64,000 nt of DNA from assembly GCF_000294655.1 (NCBI RefSeq), contig NZ_CAHP01000021.1, positions 62,001 to 126,000 of the forward strand. Direction: 5' to 3'. Positions 49,020-63,315 of this stretch are shown here, piece after piece. Every line of letters starts with the position of its first letter. Position 1 is the first letter of the stretch. A program made the translations under genes and the position numbers. This DNA comes from Magnetospirillum molischianum DSM 120 (lineage in GTDB: Bacteria; Pseudomonadota; Alphaproteobacteria; Rhodospirillales; Magnetospirillaceae). The notes beneath the pieces are model-generated. The model did not search any database, had not been told where the DNA came from, and saw nothing but the letters and a program-made list of their open reading frames with translations.

Positions 49020-49051
49020 AAAAAAACCCCGGAAACACTCGGTTTCCGGGG
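49020..49051 (-). terminator. Strong leftward terminator with no visible gene behind it
   Basis: CCCCGGAAAC (49027-49036) pairs with GTTTCCGGGG (49042-49051) in a ten-pair stem. Seven As at 49020-49026 make a T7 tail on the minus strand. No gene is recognised on that strand upstream (49052-49255). Confidence 0.8.
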
Positions 49052-49183
49052 CAAAGTCAAACAGGGAGGCTTCACGTCTAGGAGACTGGAAATGTTAGGC
49101 TTTTTCGTGAACAATGACGACCGCAGGCGCACACAGGCGAAACCATCACTCCACTGATATTCATTGGAAATTTGGCCGGACTG

Positions 49184-49256
49184 GCCCATGATGCCGTTTG
49201 CCATCGTTCGCGATGATGCGCTATCAGCCGGATAAAAACGGCCCAAGAACGGCCCA
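49184..49256. repeat. Three GGCCCA boxes before the integrase
   Basis: GGCCCA occurs at 49184-49189, 49240-49245 and 49251-49256. The last two lie within a direct repeat of AACGGCCCA separated by two bases. Short direct repeats in this position often serve as integrase arm-type sites. Confidence 0.45.
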
Positions 49257-49270
49257 TGGAATTCAGCGCC

Positions 49271-50491
49271 ATGACAAAAGCCCTCACCGACAGCGTTGTG
49301 CGGACCCTCAAGCCGGAACGTGACGCGACCGACTGGCGCGAAGTATCTGACGGGGGCTGCCGAGGGCTACGGCTGAGAATCTCTCCGACCGGCGAGAAAG
49401 TCTGGGCAATCAAAGTCACTATCCATGGGCGACGGGTGCGCCACACCCTGGGGGCCTATCCGGCGATGTCGCTGACCGAAGCTCGGGATCGGGCGCGGGA
49501 TTATGCCGCTGAGGCAAGAGCCGGGGCTTCCCCCGCCGAACTCGACGCCCGCCGCCGCGCTGAAACGCTGACCGTATCCGGAGCCCATACCGAGTATCTT
49601 GACGCCATGCGCCCGGCTCTGCGCGCCAGCACGATCAATCTGAAGGAATCGATGTTTCGCGATCACGTCGCCCCCGCCCTGGGCAAGCGGATGATCGGGA
49701 CCATCCGCAAAGCCGACCTGATCGAGGTGGTTGCCGCTGTCACCGCCAAGGGCTTTCCGGTCCAGGCCAACCGGGTCTATTCGGAATTGATGGCCCTGCT
49801 GCGCTGGTGCGAACAGAAGGACTATCTCGACGGAGTGCCATCCGCGCGAAAGAAAGACATGCACAAGGTGGCGGGAACGGCCCAGGAACAGGCCCGCCGC
49901 CGGACATTGACCGAAGCCGAGCTTACCGCCGCATGGATCGGAACCGCCGACATGGGCGACTTGTCGCGGGATTACATCCGGCTGCTGATGCTGACCGGCC
50001 AGCGCCGCGACGAGGTGCGCTTGATAGACTGGTCAGAGGTTGATCTTGCCGCTGCCGTCTGGACGATCCCCGCCACCAAATACAAGACGCGCATCCCCCA
50101 GGCCGTTCCGCTGTCGTCCCAGGTAATGACAATTCTCAGGGCGCGGTGGGCCGAAGGAGCAACCGGCCCGGTGCTGCTCGGACGGACCGATGGAAAACCA
50201 TTCAACGGCACTCTGAGCGCGCTTCGTCGGCTGCGGGAGATTGTCGGCGGCAAGGGCGACTTCACCCTTCACGATATCCGCCGCACCCTGCGAACCGGCC
50301 TCGCCCGTCTCGGTGTGGATGAGACCACCGCCGAATTGGTGATCGGCCATGTCCCCCAAGGGATCGTGAAGGTTTATGACCAGCACGACCGCATGGACGA
50401 GCGCCGCGCCGCACTCCAGCAATGGGCCGACTACCTTGAGCGGCTGGCAACGCCCGGTACCAATGTGACGCCCCTCACCAGGGGGGCGTAA
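49271..50491 (+). CDS. Tyrosine-type site-specific integrase (P4 family)
   Basis: The 406-residue protein has the DUF4102 arm-binding domain (VVRTLKPERDATDWREVSD, GLRLRISPTGEKVWAIK), a core-binding domain, and the catalytic domain. The active-site Arg is in LTGQRRDEVRLIDW. The HxxR box is TLHDIRRTLRT, followed by VIGHVPQG and the nucleophile Tyr in VKVYDQHD. It catalyses integration and excision. The ATG at 49256 is an alternative start but overlaps a GGCCCA box. Confidence 0.95.
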   Translation: MTKALTDSVVRTLKPERDATDWREVSDGGCRGLRLRISPTGEKVWAIKVTIHGRRVRHTLGAYPAMSLTEARDRARDYAAEARAGASPAELDARRRAETLTVSGAHTEYLDAMRPALRASTINLKESMFRDHVAPALGKRMIGTIRKADLIEVVAAVTAKGFPVQANRVYSELMALLRWCEQKDYLDGVPSARKKDMHKVAGTAQEQARRRTLTEAELTAAWIGTADMGDLSRDYIRLLMLTGQRRDEVRLIDWSEVDLAAAVWTIPATKYKTRIPQAVPLSSQVMTILRARWAEGATGPVLLGRTDGKPFNGTLSALRRLREIVGGKGDFTLHDIRRTLRTGLARLGVDETTAELVIGHVPQGIVKVYDQHDRMDERRAALQQWADYLERLATPGTNVTPLTRGA

Positions 50492-57373: not shown

Positions 57374-57583
57374 ATGACCGAATCGTATCCCCCCTCCGAT
57401 CTGTCCCAGGTGCTGGGCGAGGCGGGCCGGGGCGATTGGAAGGCCACCGACACCCACGCGGTCCAGCGGATGATGCCCTATCAGAACCTGTTCTATCTGC
57501 GGCAAATGTTCGACGCGGCGGAAGAGGGTATCAACGAGGCGTTCGGGGTGCCGCCGACGCCGAAGAAGGTCGCGGCGCGGTGA
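57374..57583 (+). CDS. Hypothetical protein (69 residues)
   Basis: The C-terminal half (MMPYQNLFYLRQMFDAAEEG) resembles the tail of large phage-associated proteins, so it may be a stand-alone or residual tail module. That reading is from memory of the pattern and is weak. Stop and next start share GTGA. Confidence 0.5.
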   Translation: MTESYPPSDLSQVLGEAGRGDWKATDTHAVQRMMPYQNLFYLRQMFDAAEEGINEAFGVPPTPKKVAAR

Positions 57584-58215
57584 ACAAGGCCATGTATCTG
57601 TCGCCCCGCTGTGGCGCGAAGACCCGGGCCGGAACCCCCTGCCAGTCTCCCGCGATGGCGAACGGACGGTGCCGGATGCATGGCGGCACCTCCCCCGGTG
57701 CCCCCAAGGGCGAGGCGAACGGCAACTGGCGGCACGGCGCCTATGTCGCGGAACGGTTCCTACGCTGGGCCGCTCAGGGGATGCGGGGTAAGGGGGCTGC
57801 GGCGCGGGCCTGGGAGCAAGAGTTCCTGGCCCTGCCTTCCGACGAACGGGCGGCGGTGCTGGAAGGGGTGGCGATGCTCCGCGCCTTCCACGCCCACCGC
57901 GCCGCCTCGGCCGATCTGCCCGCCGAAGGGATCGACCAGTTGGACACGATCTTCAATCGCAACGCCCGGACGGTAGCGACCATCGCCCGCGCCCGGTTGG
58001 TGCTGGCTCTGGCTGCGGCCGAGGGCGTGACAATGCCCGGCGATCAGGAACCAGAGGCCGACCAATGCGGGGACGCGACCAGCGAGGCGGAACGGATCGA
58101 GCGGTTGCTGGCGGTGCTGGAGGAAGATCAGCTCAGAAGTGCAGACTCCTCAACCACCAGCAACGCGACGATCTCGTCGTCAGTGACGCGGTACGATTCC
58201 TCCACCACGTCGTAG
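57580..58215 (+). CDS. HGG-motif element protein with an anomalous C-terminus
   Basis: The 211-residue protein starts with GTG. Its N-terminus is CGAKTRAGTPCQSPAMANGR followed by CRMHGGTSPGAPKGEANGN, a Cys/His knot and HGGxSxG motif common in islands and prophages. A helical region follows to about residue 183. The last ~28 residues (Ser/Thr-rich, SADSSTTSNATISSS) are antisense to the ImmA/IrrE gene end and look random. The original C-terminus was probably lost when the neighbouring module arrived. Confidence 0.75.
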   Translation: MNKAMYLSPRCGAKTRAGTPCQSPAMANGRCRMHGGTSPGAPKGEANGNWRHGAYVAERFLRWAAQGMRGKGAAARAWEQEFLALPSDERAAVLEGVAMLRAFHAHRAASADLPAEGIDQLDTIFNRNARTVATIARARLVLALAAAEGVTMPGDQEPEADQCGDATSEAERIERLLAVLEEDQLRSADSSTTSNATISSSVTRYDSSTTS

Positions 58216-58883
58216 CGGTCCACCCAGTGCCCGTCGAACCAGTAGTCCGCCTTTACCCGGACGCGGCGGGACGATTTCGCCTCACCGTAGAGGACATCGA
58301 AGGCCGGAGAGCGGTCGTCGAGCTCATCGCGTAGGCGTCGGGCGATGCGGGGGTTGGCCTTGGCCCATTTCCGGCGCCCCTGCGCGTGGCAGATGACAGC
58401 GAGCGGCGTCGGGTGGTACTGGACGAACCGAAGCGCGGTCGCCGTTATGCTGACGCGGAAGTCGTTAGCCACGGTACGGACGGCCTCCAAAGAAGGCGTC
58501 CTTACCTCGGAGATCGGCGCCTTGACCATGAAGGGGGGCAGCACAAGGTCTGCGGCGTAGCCGTCTGCGACCTTCTCCACTTGGTTGGCAATGCGCGGTC
58601 CGCCGCCGATGTCCTCGGGTCGGCATACAAATGACTGACCACGATGGTGGTGCCAATGTCCCAGTTCGTGCGCCAGCGAGAAGCGGGCGCGGTGCAAACC
58701 GCGTCTGCGGTCGATAGTGACTACTGCGGTGTCACCGCGGCCAATAATCCTCGCCTCACAGCTCACTAGATTCCTATAGCGGACGGTGACGTCGCGGGAC
58801 GCTGCCACCTCTTCGAGTTCGATGTCGCGGGGAGCGAGCATCCCGAGTTCCAGGAGAAGCATCTCAGCGGGCGAGAAGCTCAT
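58128..58883 (-). CDS. ImmA/IrrE family metallo-endopeptidase
   Basis: The 251-residue protein has the zinc motif HELGH in FSLAHELGHWHHH and the ImmA third-ligand region EKVADGYAADLVLP. ImmA-type peptidases cleave repressors or signalling proteins in response to stress or phage. Its start overlaps the upstream gene by ATGA. The C-terminal ~90 residues contain a basic segment and no recognised domain. Confidence 0.9.
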   Translation of the reverse strand: MSFSPAEMLLLELGMLAPRDIELEEVAASRDVTVRYRNLVSCEARIIGRGDTAVVTIDRRRGLHRARFSLAHELGHWHHHRGQSFVCRPEDIGGGPRIANQVEKVADGYAADLVLPPFMVKAPISEVRTPSLEAVRTVANDFRVSITATALRFVQYHPTPLAVICHAQGRRKWAKANPRIARRLRDELDDRSPAFDVLYGEAKSSRRVRVKADYWFDGHWVDRYDVVEESYRVTDDEIVALLVVEESALLS

Positions 58884-59317
58884 GCGTGTTTATCCATGTC
58901 GAAGTCGAAGCCGAGGCGTGCAAGGTCGTCGAGGAGGCCGTCGAGTTCCTCTTCCGTAATCGCTTCTCCCTTCCGCGCGGCGAGCGTCAGCTTGTCCGTC
59001 ACACGGCGGTCGGCGATCAACTGGTCGAACAGCCGCTTCTTGTCCGCAAACGACAGAATTTTTACCTCGGCGGGTGCCTCCGTCGCAGCGCGTGAGCCGC
59101 GCGCGGCTGCCCGTGCCCGGACCTTTTCGCGGAGTCGACGTCCGCTGCCGACGATGGCGGCGTTGATGGTTATGGTGGCGTCAGCGACCGCAGCCGCGAC
59201 ACCGCCGAGTTCCTGCTCCGCTTCGACCAGCAGATCGTCGTCCGAGATCGCCATGAGGTCGAAGACCAAGTCGTCGAGCAGTTCCTCAAGCCTGTTCGTC
59301 GCGTTGGTGTTGGTCAT
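58880..59317 (-). CDS. Hypothetical protein between sigma factor and ImmA peptidase (145 residues)
   Basis: The protein is predicted all-helical: acidic ends (LEELLDDLVFDLMAISDDDL; ITEEELDGLLDDLARLGFDF) surround a basic centre (SGRRLREKVRARAAARGSRA). It was not recognised. By position it may be the substrate or partner of the ImmA peptidase, or an anti-sigma factor. The ATG at 59317 gives an ATGA overlap with the sigma gene; 59326 is an alternative. Confidence 0.7.
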   Translation of the reverse strand: MTNTNATNRLEELLDDLVFDLMAISDDDLLVEAEQELGGVAAAVADATITINAAIVGSGRRLREKVRARAAARGSRAATEAPAEVKILSFADKKRLFDQLIADRRVTDKLTLAARKGEAITEEELDGLLDDLARLGFDFDMDKHA

Positions 59318-59856
59318 GGCTTCCATCCCTTTGGAAAATGTTTGGCCACCCGCCGACGGATGCGCCGAAGGGCCGTGTCGTAGGTCGTCTGGTTCATCCC
59401 GAAAGCGGCTTTGATCTCGGCGGGAGTCATGCCATCGACGCGCCCCATCAGCACCGCCTGCGCCTCGTCGTCGTCTCCGAACATGTCTACGATCACCTCG
59501 TTGAGGCGGGCACAGGCGTCGTTGGACGCGGCCTCCTGCTCTGGTGTTGGCGTCGGTGACGGGACGGTGTCTTCCATCTGCACCAGTTCAGCCTCTTTGG
59601 CGACCGCACGAAGGCGCTTTCGGGACGCCCAGGCAATGCTGCGCATCACCTGCATCAGGCAGGCTACAAACGGCTGGTCGGATGGTACCGTCCGCTGGCC
59701 GTCCAGGATACGCCGGATGGCCTCCTGGAGGAGGTCGTCCGGGCCGTAATCGGTCCCGAGACAACGGAGCCGTGCACCCCTGGTGAGACGGAACAAGTCC
59801 GCCTGACTGAGCGCCTTCAAGCGCGCGATAATTTCAGACCGTTCTAGCAACATCAC
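59314..59856 (-). CDS. Sigma-70 family (ECF-like) RNA polymerase sigma factor
   Basis: The 180-residue protein has a region 2-like segment (YGPDDLLQEAIRRILDGQRT, then FVACLMQVMRSIAWASRKR), a linker, and a region 4-like HTH (GMTPAEIKAAFGMNQTTYDT, then ALRRIRRRVAKHFPKGW). It is a plausible specific sigma factor for the module, perhaps acting on its own promoter in the divergent interval. Confidence 0.8.
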   Translation of the reverse strand: MMLLERSEIIARLKALSQADLFRLTRGARLRCLGTDYGPDDLLQEAIRRILDGQRTVPSDQPFVACLMQVMRSIAWASRKRLRAVAKEAELVQMEDTVPSPTPTPEQEAASNDACARLNEVIVDMFGDDDEAQAVLMGRVDGMTPAEIKAAFGMNQTTYDTALRRIRRRVAKHFPKGWKP

Positions 59857-59904
59857 CCCCGCATGGCGACGCCCATTTGACCAGGAATGCCCCTAAGCGG
59901 ATCG

Positions 59905-59948
59905 GTCGCGGACAGCGCCATGAAATTTTTCCACGACATGTCCGCGAC
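59905..59948. promoter_or_regulatory. Inverted repeat in the divergent promoter region of the cargo module
   Basis: GTCGCGGACA (59905-59914) and TGTCCGCGAC (59939-59948) are perfect inverted ten-base arms 24 bases apart. They lie 49 bp upstream of the sigma factor start and 87 bp before the DUF2188 start, so one factor could control both arms. Confidence 0.75.
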
Positions 59949-60034
59949 TAGTTCTGCATGGAGCATTAACCGTTGAAGGCCGTGAGAGGGCGGCCGCACC
60001 TCCAGTCATTATTGCCACGAAAGGAACAGTTTTA

Positions 60035-60259
60035 ATGTCTAAGCGCAACCAACATGTGGTGCCGCACAACGGGAAATGGGCCGTCCGCGGCGCGGGAGCA
60101 TCCCGCGTGACGTCGGTTCACGAGACCCAGCGGGTGGCCATCGACCGTGGCCGCGAGATTTCCCGCAACCAGGGCAGCGAACTGCTCATCCACGGGCGCA
60201 ACGGCCAGATCCGCGAACGCGACTCGCACGGCAACGACCCCTTTCCGCCCAAGGGCTGA
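60035..60259 (+). CDS. DUF2188 domain-containing protein
   Basis: The 74-residue protein matches DUF2188 throughout: HVVPHNGKWAVRGAGASRVT, a central helix (TQRVAIDRGREISRNQGSEL), then IHGRNGQIRERDSHGNDPFP. AAGGAACAG precedes the ATG. The fold is a small alpha/beta domain of unknown function that often accompanies defence or mobile genes. Confidence 0.9.
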   Translation: MSKRNQHVVPHNGKWAVRGAGASRVTSVHETQRVAIDRGREISRNQGSELLIHGRNGQIRERDSHGNDPFPPKG

Positions 60260-60318
60260 ATGACGAGGCGCGCGCCCATGATGGGTAACCTAATCGCCGT
60301 ACTGGCAAGGAGAAAACT

Positions 60319-61437
60319 TTGAGAACCTTGGACTTCAAGTCGTTTCCCTACGTCCCGGCCTTGCGCTCGCGGGATTCCGAGAAACTGGCCTTCCAGTCGC
60401 TGCCGGAAAGCTACCAGAACCGCCTGCTCCCGCTGGTAACCCTTTTCCGCAGCGGCAACGGGACGGATTTCGGGATGCCGTTGAGCAAAGCGACGCGCAT
60501 GGTCGGTGGGCGCCCGTTCATCCTTGACATCGACCGTATTCAGGCACAGGTGTCCCGCACGGCCGACCAAGACATCATCGACGCGGCGAGGGCGTTCAAC
60601 TCGACACTGAATGCGCTCACGGCGCCAACGGGCGGGTTCTCAGCGTGGCGGGATTTTGTCGACGCCGTCCCCAACGCCGTGCCGTGTGCCGTCATCGGCG
60701 GGACGGTCAAGGAGTTCATCTCCCAGGTCCGTGCCATCCTCGCCAGCAAGGGGAAGATTGCCATCCGGACGTCTGGTTCCAACGCCGAGATGGAGCACGT
60801 TCTCGCCGCGCTGCGGGCGGTTCCCGACGTCACGGACGTACTCCTCATCGTGGATCTCGGCGACGTGCGCGGTCGGGTCGCCCGGGCGGTTCAGGTCTTT
60901 GAGGTAACGCGCAGCCGGTTGGTCGCGGCCTTGCCGTTGGATTGGCCCTTCCTTTCCCTCGTCTGCCTCGGAACCAGCTTCCCGTTCGAGACCCCGCCCG
61001 CAGGCGTCACGCCGCTGGACATTGAGGAGGCGGACGTCTTTGACGCAATCGGGGGCTTCGCGGTGGCGCAGTACGGCGACTACGCGGGCATGCCAGTGCG
61101 CCCGCAGAAGGGTGGTGGCATGGGTTATCCCCGCATCGTCGGCCCCACAGATCGGGAGTGGATACAGTCTCGCGGCCAGAACATCGGGGCGCTGAAGGAG
61201 TACATTTCGTGCGCCGATGAGCTCAAGAAGGCGGGATGGGCAAACATTCCTGGGCTGTGGGGTTCTGATCGCATCGACGCGGCGGCCGCAGGTAACATCG
61301 CCAACATGGGCAATGCGGCGAAATGGCTAGCGGTGAAGATGAACATTCACCTCTATCGCCAGCTAGATCGCGTGTCCGCTCTGGCAGAAACCCCCCAGCC
61401 CAACGCCTACGATGACGAGATGCCGGACAACGATTGA
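60319..61437 (+). CDS. Beta/sce7725-like family protein
   Basis: The 372-residue protein begins at a TTG, with AAGGAG five bases before it. It starts with SFPYVPALRSRDSEKLAFQS and has VPCAVIGGTVKEFI, VLLIVDLGDVRG and WPFLSLVCLGTSFPFE, a TIM-barrel-like beta-strand pattern found in the phage beta-protein family (PF14350), to which sce7725 is related. No enzymatic residues can be assigned. It converges on the sce7726 gene with one base between stops. Confidence 0.7.
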   Translation: MRTLDFKSFPYVPALRSRDSEKLAFQSLPESYQNRLLPLVTLFRSGNGTDFGMPLSKATRMVGGRPFILDIDRIQAQVSRTADQDIIDAARAFNSTLNALTAPTGGFSAWRDFVDAVPNAVPCAVIGGTVKEFISQVRAILASKGKIAIRTSGSNAEMEHVLAALRAVPDVTDVLLIVDLGDVRGRVARAVQVFEVTRSRLVAALPLDWPFLSLVCLGTSFPFETPPAGVTPLDIEEADVFDAIGGFAVAQYGDYAGMPVRPQKGGGMGYPRIVGPTDREWIQSRGQNIGALKEYISCADELKKAGWANIPGLWGSDRIDAAAAGNIANMGNAAKWLAVKMNIHLYRQLDRVSALAETPQPNAYDDEMPDND

Positions 61438-61438
61438 G

Positions 61439-62059
61439 TCAGTTGCCCAGCGCAGCGACCAGCCTCTCACCGCGCGCCCGAAAACGCGCCTTCAAAGAGG
61501 CCATGGCCACCGAGCGGAGGATAGACGGCCGGATCGCTGCGATCCGCTGACGGAGGATGTAGGCGTATTCCTCCTTCTGGAATGGCACGCGACCGCGCTC
61601 GAACGCTGCTTCAATGTCCTCCCTGAGCAGGAACGACGCGAGCGCCGAGGGCTCCTTGACCGTGACGATCCGGCCTAACCGCTTCTGCCGAACAGTGCCG
61701 TCCGAGCCCACCCGGTAGACGCCGACGCGGCCTTCACCAACCTCATCGACAACAGCGTCGACCTTGTCGAGGTGGCGGTCGCCGCAGACTACCCCGACAT
61801 TGTCGAAGTGGCGCATCATGCGCCGGATCTGGTCGGGGAGCCGGTCGAGTTTGTCGGCGTCGCTCTTGATCTCGAAGGCATGCAGGTGGCCGTTGAACAG
61901 CGCTATATCCACCCGTCCACGCCACGAATCGACGACCATTTCGCTCGCCGGTACGGGGTCCGACCTCCAGTGGCGGCTCCCGACTAGGTAGCGCAAGAAC
62001 GCCTTCTTCACGTCTGCGGCCGGGCCGCCGCCGAATGGGTCGAAATCACAGCGATCCAT
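61439..62059 (-). CDS. sce7726 family protein (PD-(D/E)XK nuclease-like)
   Basis: The 206-residue protein has the core VDIALFNGHLHAFEIKSDAD followed by KLDRLPDQIR. This is the sce7726 signature, where D (VDIAL) and ExK (FEIKSD) form a PD-(D/E)XK-like metal site. The rest is alpha/beta. sce7725 and sce7726 genes are neighbours in other genomes, but here they face each other instead of running in tandem. Confidence 0.85.
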   Translation of the reverse strand: MDRCDFDPFGGGPAADVKKAFLRYLVGSRHWRSDPVPASEMVVDSWRGRVDIALFNGHLHAFEIKSDADKLDRLPDQIRRMMRHFDNVGVVCGDRHLDKVDAVVDEVGEGRVGVYRVGSDGTVRQKRLGRIVTVKEPSALASFLLREDIEAAFERGRVPFQKEEYAYILRQRIAAIRPSILRSVAMASLKARFRARGERLVAALGN

Positions 62060-62660: not shown

Positions 62661-62661
62661 C
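62649..62661. repeat. GTCCA-N3-TGGAC palindrome, copy 6
   Basis: Spacer ATC. It ends on the first base of the pemK-like stop codon and is otherwise non-coding, 5 kb from copy 5. Confidence 0.8.
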
Positions 62662-63062
62662 TAATTGTCCATTAATCCGAGGGCGACACGCACACATTGC
62701 TGGATGGCTTGCAGATCGTCAGCAGGCATCTGAAATGTGCAATAGCCCCGTTTTCCCCCTTCGCCGCGAACCTTGATCCGATCAAGTCGGGCCAAGCTGA
62801 CGGTGGAAAGCATATCGCATTTCGCCCACATCGGACTGCGAGCAGGTGGGTAGGCTCCGGATGATAAGAGGTGGTGGTAACGCTCCAAAGGTGAGGGCTC
62901 GGTACTGCTCAACGGGACCACCGTGCAAAGGCCCAGTCGATTTCTGAAGCGTGGTGACACGATCACGACAGGGCGGACCTTCACCATTTCCGGCGGCACG
63001 AAGCCCGTTCCAAAGTCGCAAATGACGATGGTCCCCGTGGGCGGATGGAACGTCAAAGGCAT
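62661..63062 (-). CDS. PemK/MazF family type II toxin
   Basis: The 133-residue protein has the MazF/PemK SH3-like barrel: GTIVICDFGTGF, VKVRPVVIVSPRFRN (KxRPVVIVS is the family signature), CTVVPLSST. These toxins are sequence-specific mRNA endonucleases. The antitoxin candidate is the Xre-type gene four bases upstream, not a MazE/PemI-like protein. Confidence 0.88.
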   Translation of the reverse strand: MPLTFHPPTGTIVICDFGTGFVPPEMVKVRPVVIVSPRFRNRLGLCTVVPLSSTEPSPLERYHHLLSSGAYPPARSPMWAKCDMLSTVSLARLDRIKVRGEGGKRGYCTFQMPADDLQAIQQCVRVALGLMDN

Positions 63063-63066
63063 GACG

Positions 63067-63315
63067 TCACTCGCCCCCCTTCAGCCGCACGCCGGGACCG
63101 CCGCTGCCTTGATAGTCACCGGCAGGGATGAAAACGGCACCAGCGGCTTCGAGAGCGGCCTGAACCTTCTCGGCATTACCGGCGCTGCTTCGCTCCAAGC
63201 CGAGCTTCTCCATACGTTGGATCGTCGGAAGAGAAAGCTCGGATGCTGCGGCAAGGTCTTTCTGCTCCCACCCCAGGAACAGGCGAGCCACTTTGATCTG
63301 CGTTGAGGAAATCAT
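63067..63315 (-). CDS. Xre-family HTH regulator, candidate antitoxin
   Basis: The 82-residue protein is a single HTH (VARLFLGWEQKDLAAASELS, LPTIQRMEKLG) with a short C-terminal arm. AACATGATTTCC marks its ATG at 63315; the upstream in-frame start is less likely. It is cotranscribed with the PemK-like toxin and faces operator-like repeats. Confidence 0.85.
   Translation of the reverse strand: MISSTQIKVARLFLGWEQKDLAAASELSLPTIQRMEKLGLERSSAGNAEKVQAALEAAGAVFIPAGDYQGSGGPGVRLKGGE

Follow-up and report, generated by a model that had tools for sequence, protein, structure and literature searches.

A sigma factor-linked CapP cassette beside exchangeable defence genes in Magnetospirillum molischianum: a probable control switch

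Introduction

The damage-triggered controllers CapW, CapH+CapP and CapK+CapS all act by lifting repression, as described in the part of PMC13373217 available to us, and in CapH+CapP it is the peptidase CapP that is activated by single-stranded DNA (ssDNA) and removes the inhibitor. A related logic exists in immunity with a sigma factor at its end: in the CalpL-CalpT-CalpS set of type III CRISPR (clustered regularly interspaced short palindromic repeats) loci, CalpL cleaves an anti-sigma factor and frees the sigma factor (PMC12751052, in the sections available). Here we describe a locus of Magnetospirillum molischianum DSM 120, located in a stretch of 64,000 nucleotides (contig NZ_CAHP01000021.1, positions 62,001 to 126,000, hereafter the window), in which genes for a sigma factor, a small protein (p148) and a CapP-type peptidase stand divergently to a set of putative defence genes. 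We read it, with a probability of about 0.7, as a mobile cassette that controls antiviral operons and exchanges its payload, in which CapP would free the sigma factor from a 145-residue anti-sigma factor and the sigma factor would activate both its own operon and the payload.

The cassette resembles CapH+CapP in the family of its peptidase and in its position beside divergent defence operons (27 of 41 genome loci here; PMC13373217, same part). It differs in that an extracytoplasmic function (ECF) sigma factor and a helical protein of 113-149 residues replace the helix-turn-helix (HTH) repressor, in that its peptidases form their own side of a phylogenetic tree, and in having its own double promoter motif; its logic is predicted to be activation. 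With CalpL-CalpT-CalpS it has in common a protease, a sigma factor and, presumably, an anti-sigma factor within an immune locus, whereas CalpL is a Lon-SAVED protease triggered by cyclic tetraadenylate (cA4; PMC12751052, as above) and the peptidase here belongs to the CapP-type M78 family. No CRISPR genes were noticed beside the cassette, where no search for arrays was made. CapK+CapS likewise exerts ssDNA-activated control over swapped defence operons, with a kinase resembling anti-sigma kinases, but CapS is a DNA-binding repressor and that controller, in the same part of PMC13373217, has no sigma factor. SiwR and its relatives activate adjacent genes in response to genotoxic stress; they are WYL transcription factors, and the available text of PMC10693628 describes no sigma factor/peptidase cassette. 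The sigma-type cassette is a new variation on CapH/CapP control; no description of it was found in our literature search, although the primary CapP paper, which lay outside that search, might mention one.

Conservation of the cassette and exchange of its neighbours

The six genes of the locus (Table 1) had been described in a sequence-only reading as one candidate defence or stress module. All six open reading frames (ORFs) were recovered at the same positions, but they do not make one fixed unit: compared across loci, they are two things, a conserved regulatory cassette on the minus strand (sigma factor, p148, CapP-type peptidase) and a payload that varies from locus to locus, here DUF2188 and beta, with cII/sce7726 convergent to beta. 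A pattern search with the window peptidase alone, run on genome contigs, gave the 46 loci of the discovery set; genes were counted as six-frame ORFs, since the initial gene caller missed some. Sigma factor, p148 and CapP were all present in 41 of the 46 loci, including L025 and L039, which have broken frames (sigma in the former, CapP and sigma in the latter). Three of the remaining loci were cut by contig ends (L021, L035, L036), one has a disrupted CapP (L029) and one lacks the sigma gene (L050). The profiles used for the triad were built from the same loci; the single window sequences alone listed 29 p148 and 44 sigma ORFs at E ≤10, counts that include the window's own copy and weak matches.

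All three regulator genes were also carried by 21/21 held-out plasmid loci; these were fetched after the discovery set and cover 21 of 26 records (H25, H27, H28 and H29 appear to duplicate H26, as H39 does H38, with equal identity and E-value). The order of the genes was identical in the 65 loci checked (41 genome, three further and 21 plasmid loci, two of the 65 being second copies of another locus), and the stop-to-stop distances were 338-460 and 713-806 nt. Two loci were left out of the clustered motif analysis described below: L003, whose site is that of L007, and L106, a second copy of the L086 locus that is counted among the 21 plasmid loci. By its gene content and order, sigma-p148-CapP is a conserved regulatory cassette. 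In IMG/VR, two (L107, L108) of the 15 loci with a related peptidase carry the triad. The contig of L108 has phage-like genes, as judged by eye, and lacks the strict promoter pair defined below; phages may therefore move the cassette. Several copies of the cassette were seen in S. yabuuchiae NS355, and a near-copy of the Sphingomonas cassettes occurs in a record titled Bacillus sp. 2B10 (L045), probably through contamination. The Sphingomonas-type cassettes (L041-L048, L051, L105) have a shorter p148 of 113-116 residues, and no payload was recognised beside them.

A recognised defence-type payload was found in 27 of the 41 genome loci by cluster membership and scans of representatives, so that payloads were typed through representatives and not each protein singly. 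They comprised 15 cyclases of the cyclic oligonucleotide-based antiphage signalling system (CBASS; in fragments in L039), two Pycsar, two Bil-like, three multiubiquitin/ThiF, four E1-JAB and one E1-like payload. L008 has an NsnA-like gene, and in four further loci, as in nine of the Sphingomonas type (one under the Bacillus title), no payload was recognised. Among the 21 plasmid loci, typed by their annotation, there were five with a nucleotidyltransferase and SAVED or phospholipase genes (one being the second copy), four with multiubiquitin/ThiF, one with ThiF and patatin, one with beta/sce7726, four with DUF2188, and six with other or unannotated genes. On plasmid pDE of Cereibacter sphaeroides 2.4.1, for example, the cassette adjoins genes annotated as a nucleotidyltransferase and a SAVED protein. 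Judged by these annotations and matches, the payload is swapped beside a constant cassette.

The three regulatory proteins

The window peptidase matched Pfam Peptidase_M78 (E 1.8e-8) and, over residues 6-244, the PADLOC capP model (E 2e-52); no match to a Lon or SAVED model was obtained in the Pfam scan at E ≤1. A 38-row profile of the peptidases, in which HELGHW is invariant, was nearer to the solved CapP 7t5t (E 3.8e-20) than to IrrE (1.9e-8), and its match to 7t5t spans both parts, the HEXXH domain and the C-terminal region. These comparisons identify the window peptidase as a homologue of CapP. When 63 peptidases were placed in a tree, a branch with support of 100/99 split 41 sigma-type rows from 22 labelled as HTH-type; for four of the latter the label is weak (L060, with no CapH called; the short L076, L078 and L079, with the partner of L078 not seen), and the sampling was uneven, as most sigma-type rows came from a search with the window's own peptides and the HTH-type rows from the PADLOC model. 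Among 385 genomes of the window's class, that model matched 96 proteins at E ≤1e-10, and ImmA proteins of other kinds made up many of these. In 18 of the 30 capP loci listed, a protein of 104-125 residues, assigned as HTH by eye from its sequence, precedes a long CapP, and the sigma triad occurred among the same 30 in L058 and the window. The window's own genome yielded one more match to the capP profile, a weaker one (E 9.9e-14), in a 491-residue frame (G000:C42:39143-39646).

The sequence-only reading had recognised a sigma-70-like factor with regions 2 and 4, and with this the structure model and the profile agree, although curated family cut-offs were not reached (TIGR02937, 34.5 bits against 42.9 required; the Pfam cut-off was likewise missed). 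The profile of the sigma factor matched a solved ECF sigma factor (E 2.3e-5), and its model (predicted local distance difference test, pLDDT, 91.9) has two helical domains at the positions of sigma 2 and sigma 4. In a Foldseek search with this model, ECF sigma chains top the list, with only 1/246 matches at E ≤0.001. The product is, as judged from profile and model, ECF-like and consists of regions 2 and 4 only.

The small protein, p148, had been given as 145 residues long, which fits a start at the second ATG of the 148-codon ORF; the corresponding M4 is invariant in a 43-row alignment. No Pfam, NCBIfam or PHROG match was found for it, HTH families included, and its sole PADLOC match was a weak one to capH (E 0.038). 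Its structure model is all-helical. Because a sigma factor stands here with a tightly linked small helical protein and with a peptidase related to one that eliminates an inhibitor when it senses ssDNA, the simplest reading is that p148 is an anti-sigma factor, a function suggested by the gene pairing and the helical model. Filing of the locus as CapH+CapP was rejected on account of the absence of an HTH match in p148, the capH match of only E 0.038 and the preceding sigma gene.

The divergent promoter-like motif

Between the regulator and the payload often lies the motif TGTCCG-N17/18-GCNW, present on both strands and pointing outward. Most of these intervals show the outward TGTCCG boxes by eye; the motif was first spotted in this way and then counted on the same discovery loci, so that only the plasmid set is held out; a strict pair was defined as CGGACA-N5..35-TGTCCG, and 550-nt windows of the same loci served as background. 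The strict pair occurred in 30/44 discovery regions in comparison to 0/1104 other windows, in a mean of 0.07 of 44 regions after Markov shuffling, and in 0/18 regions upstream of HTH-type CapP pairs. Among the held-out plasmid regions it was found in 11/21 (10/20 without the second copy), and after clustering of the sigma factors at 50% identity in 25/37 clusters. These counts bear on the possibility that the locus is a matter of neighbourhood only, in which an ordinary ImmA module carried by the element, and a sigma factor, lie next to cargo to which they have no regulatory link. Mobile elements do gather unrelated genes, and the link proposed here is a putative one; with the triad common to 41/46 and 21/21 loci and the promoter-like pair absent from all other background windows, this explanation appears very improbable.

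When one mismatch was allowed in 30 representatives, GCNW began 17 or 18 nt past the box in 52/60 arms, whereas the gap between the two TGTCCG boxes varied from 6 to 31 nt (in Sphingomonas-type cassettes the inner gap is mostly 25 nt). The -10-like boxes of the same locus agreed in 6.03 of 8 positions, compared with 4.39 between loci (reached in 0/5000 permutations). The spacing is fixed within an arm and free between the arms, which argues for two sigma-dependent promoters rather than one palindromic operator; with its conserved -35/-10-like pair on both sides, the motif is predicted to be such a pair of promoters. In the window the motif has two copies, the two arms only (0.04 expected), and in the whole genome seven matches versus three in the reversed control; the predicted regulon is therefore this locus.

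Alternatively, the 145-residue protein could be a CapH-like DNA-binding repressor with CGGACA...TGTCCG as its operator, and CapP cleavage would then lead to derepression, with the sigma factor only assisting. The protein does occupy the position of CapH before CapP, capH is its sole match in PADLOC, and the motif is an inverted repeat. However, the variable gap of this repeat, together with the -10-like spacing kept by each arm, is unlike a single palindromic operator, and neither an HTH match nor an assigned DNA-binding fold in the helical model speaks for binding to DNA. We consider this explanation unlikely, though the strongest of the alternatives.

The proposed switch

The sequences themselves show the cassette with its constant gene order, a peptidase akin to CapP, the paired motif and an exchange of payloads; beyond this, we infer an anti-sigma function, cleavage, an ssDNA trigger, promoter use and an antiviral effect. 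At rest, the 145-residue protein would keep the ECF sigma factor inactive. Single-stranded DNA, arising from phage replication or DNA damage, would activate the CapP peptidase, which would cleave the 145-residue protein, and the freed sigma factor would guide RNA polymerase to the two back-to-back promoters (TGTCCG / GCNW). One of these would serve the sigma factor's own operon, giving positive feedback, and the opposite one the defence payload, which in the window would be DUF2188-beta, with the convergent cII/sce7726 gene placed as in P4.

Much of this had been proposed in the sequence-only reading, namely that the peptidase may relieve the sigma factor of an inhibitor and that the sigma factor then switches on DUF2188-beta; the triad order in 65 loci, the double motif and the CapP kinship favour the proposal indirectly, while interaction, cleavage and induction stay at the level of prediction. 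Its two arms around one promoter interval also hold for the sigma arm and the DUF2188-beta arm. The sce7726 gene, counted in it among the genes of the two arms, is convergent with beta and is therefore not transcribed from the shared interval. The part of nucleic-acid effector that the sequence-only reading gave to this gene, a P4 cII homologue on the strand opposite to beta, is a hypothetical one.

A different role of cleavage can be imagined as well, in which CapP acts on the sigma factor itself, or the 145-residue protein is a co-activator, and cleavage ends or tunes the response rather than starting it. The substrate of the peptidase is a presumed one and the three genes stay closely linked throughout, which would suit such a role; nevertheless, in CapH/CapP as with CalpL it is an inhibitor that is removed (PMC13373217 and PMC12751052, in the parts available), and we regard this role as quite improbable.

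Several observations weigh against the anti-sigma switch. L050 has p148 and CapP but no sigma gene, and seven of the nine Sphingomonas-type loci without a recognised payload also have no called divergent gene. The strict promoter pair is missing from 14/44 discovery and 10/21 held-out regions; it is also missing from the prophage-like L108 despite its triad, and the contig of L107 starts at the sigma gene. With one mismatch allowed, the background climbs to 71/1104 windows, and relaxed counts are therefore no proof. As for p148, its profile had no significant match to any solved structure, and the fold comparison of its model, in which no DNA-binding fold was assigned, spoke neither for nor against a known anti-sigma fold. 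In a phylum sample the p148 profile was found in 1/398 genomes, only the window's own, and therefore either the cassette is sparse or that search was lossy.

Taken as proposed, the cassette probably works like a plug-in switch that turns on neighbouring antiviral gene sets. If this is true, no repressor would be needed to silence a dangerous payload under sigma-based control, which would also amplify itself, and one short promoter would suffice to place the cassette before a new payload. The searchable promoter motif may flag further, so far unknown defence genes, and with such a switch it would be understandable that sigma factors and ImmA peptidases occur next to CBASS, Pycsar, Bil, ubiquitin-like and beta/cII loci.

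The payload in the window

The first payload gene matched DUF2188 (Pfam E 2.8e-25) and the PADLOC candidate PDC-S16 (E 1.2e-40). The second, a 372-residue protein, had been labelled beta/sce7725-like; no sce7725 match appeared at E ≤1, and it matched Beta_protein (Pfam E 8.9e-33; PADLOC beta E 5.3e-53). The third was identified as sce7726 (NCBIfam sce7726_fam E 2.9e-28) and matched the P4 cII model of PADLOC, cll (E 1.9e-37). Retention of its nuclease-like core in homologues, which the sequence-only reading had singled out, was borne out, as D...ExK is conserved in the window and four aligned homologues, including P4 cII. So was co-occurrence beyond this genome: a plasmid of Azospirillum ramasamyi has the sigma factor, a 141-residue protein, CapP, beta and a convergent sce7726, without DUF2188.

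The P4 gop-beta-cII system, which protects against lambda and P1 (PMC9122126, in the sections available), likewise has beta followed by convergent cII/sce7726 on an integrase-bearing element. It differs from the locus here, where the sigma-CapP cassette adjoins and DUF2188 occupies the place of gop, which precedes beta in the P4 record NC_001609; a tblastn search of the element with P4 gop at E ≤1 gave no match. The payload appears to be a gop-less relative of gop-beta-cII and may be antiviral as well. The convergent beta/cII pair is also plasmid-borne in Sinorhizobium fredii and Rhizobium sp. BG4, and it is present in four of 11 other Beta_protein genomes among the 385 searched (L124, L125, L131, L134). 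PD-Lambda-2 of the PADLOC models similarly combines an ImmA-like domain with a Beta-like protein, but the window matches are weak and partial (PD-Lambda-2_B 0.015; _C 2.5e-4 over 34 residues), and membership was rejected as no full-length _B or _C match was found.

In six of the 11 other Alphaproteobacteria genomes (L126, L129, L130, L131, L134, L136), Beta_protein stands directly behind a short ImmA-domain gene (167-186 residues), a second kind of link between ImmA and beta. Two of the six, L131 and L134, carry a convergent sce7726 as well, and in several of these loci a protein that looks membrane-spanning by eye precedes the ImmA gene. Payload proteins are shared with CapH+CapP too: DUF2188 relatives lie divergently beside 4/18 HTH-type CapP pairs (L056, L057, L066, L067), as the first divergent gene in three of them, and DUF2188 may therefore be a common damage-induced payload protein.

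The carrier element

The module had been placed in a mobile element, and indeed 39-bp direct repeats bound an element of 15.9 kb, which holds a tyrosine integrase beside the left repeat (Table 1) and a Toprim/DnaB-like gene.

Table 1. Positions of the cassette, payload and element features, numbered from the first nucleotide of the window.
Feature	Position	Strand	Basis
39-bp direct repeat on the left of the element (15.9 kb)	49048..49086		Repeat search
Tyrosine integrase, beside left repeat	49256..50491	+	Domain match
CapP-type M78 metallopeptidase, 251 aa, proposed trigger protease	58128..58883	-	ORF call, Pfam, PADLOC, profile comparison
p148, 148-aa ORF (145 aa when started at the invariant second Met, 59317), putative anti-sigma factor and substrate of CapP	58880..59326	-	Alignment, all-helical model; function inferred
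ECF-type sigma factor, 180 aa	59314..59856	-	Profile, structure model, Foldseek
Promoter-like arm facing sigma operon: TGTCCG, 18 nt, GCATT	59886..59914	-	Motif scan
Promoter-like arm facing payload: TGTCCG, 18 nt, GCATT	59939..59967	+	Motif scan
DUF2188 / PADLOC PDC-S16, payload gene 1	60035..60259	+	Pfam, PADLOC
Beta_protein, P4 beta homologue, payload gene 2	60319..61437	+	Pfam, PADLOC
sce7726 / P4 cII homologue, convergent with beta	61439..62059	-	NCBIfam, PADLOC
Right 39-bp direct repeat	64966-65004, just past window end		Repeat search

At 62661-63315 of the window, between beta/cII and the right end of the element, lies a gene for a PemK/MazF-like toxin (PF02452, E 2.6e-14), and next to it a small HTH-like gene with a sub-threshold match. 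At the other side of the cassette, capP overlaps at its 3ʹ end with an ORF of the opposite strand that has an HGGxSTG domain (57436-58215, plus strand; E 3.3e-12).

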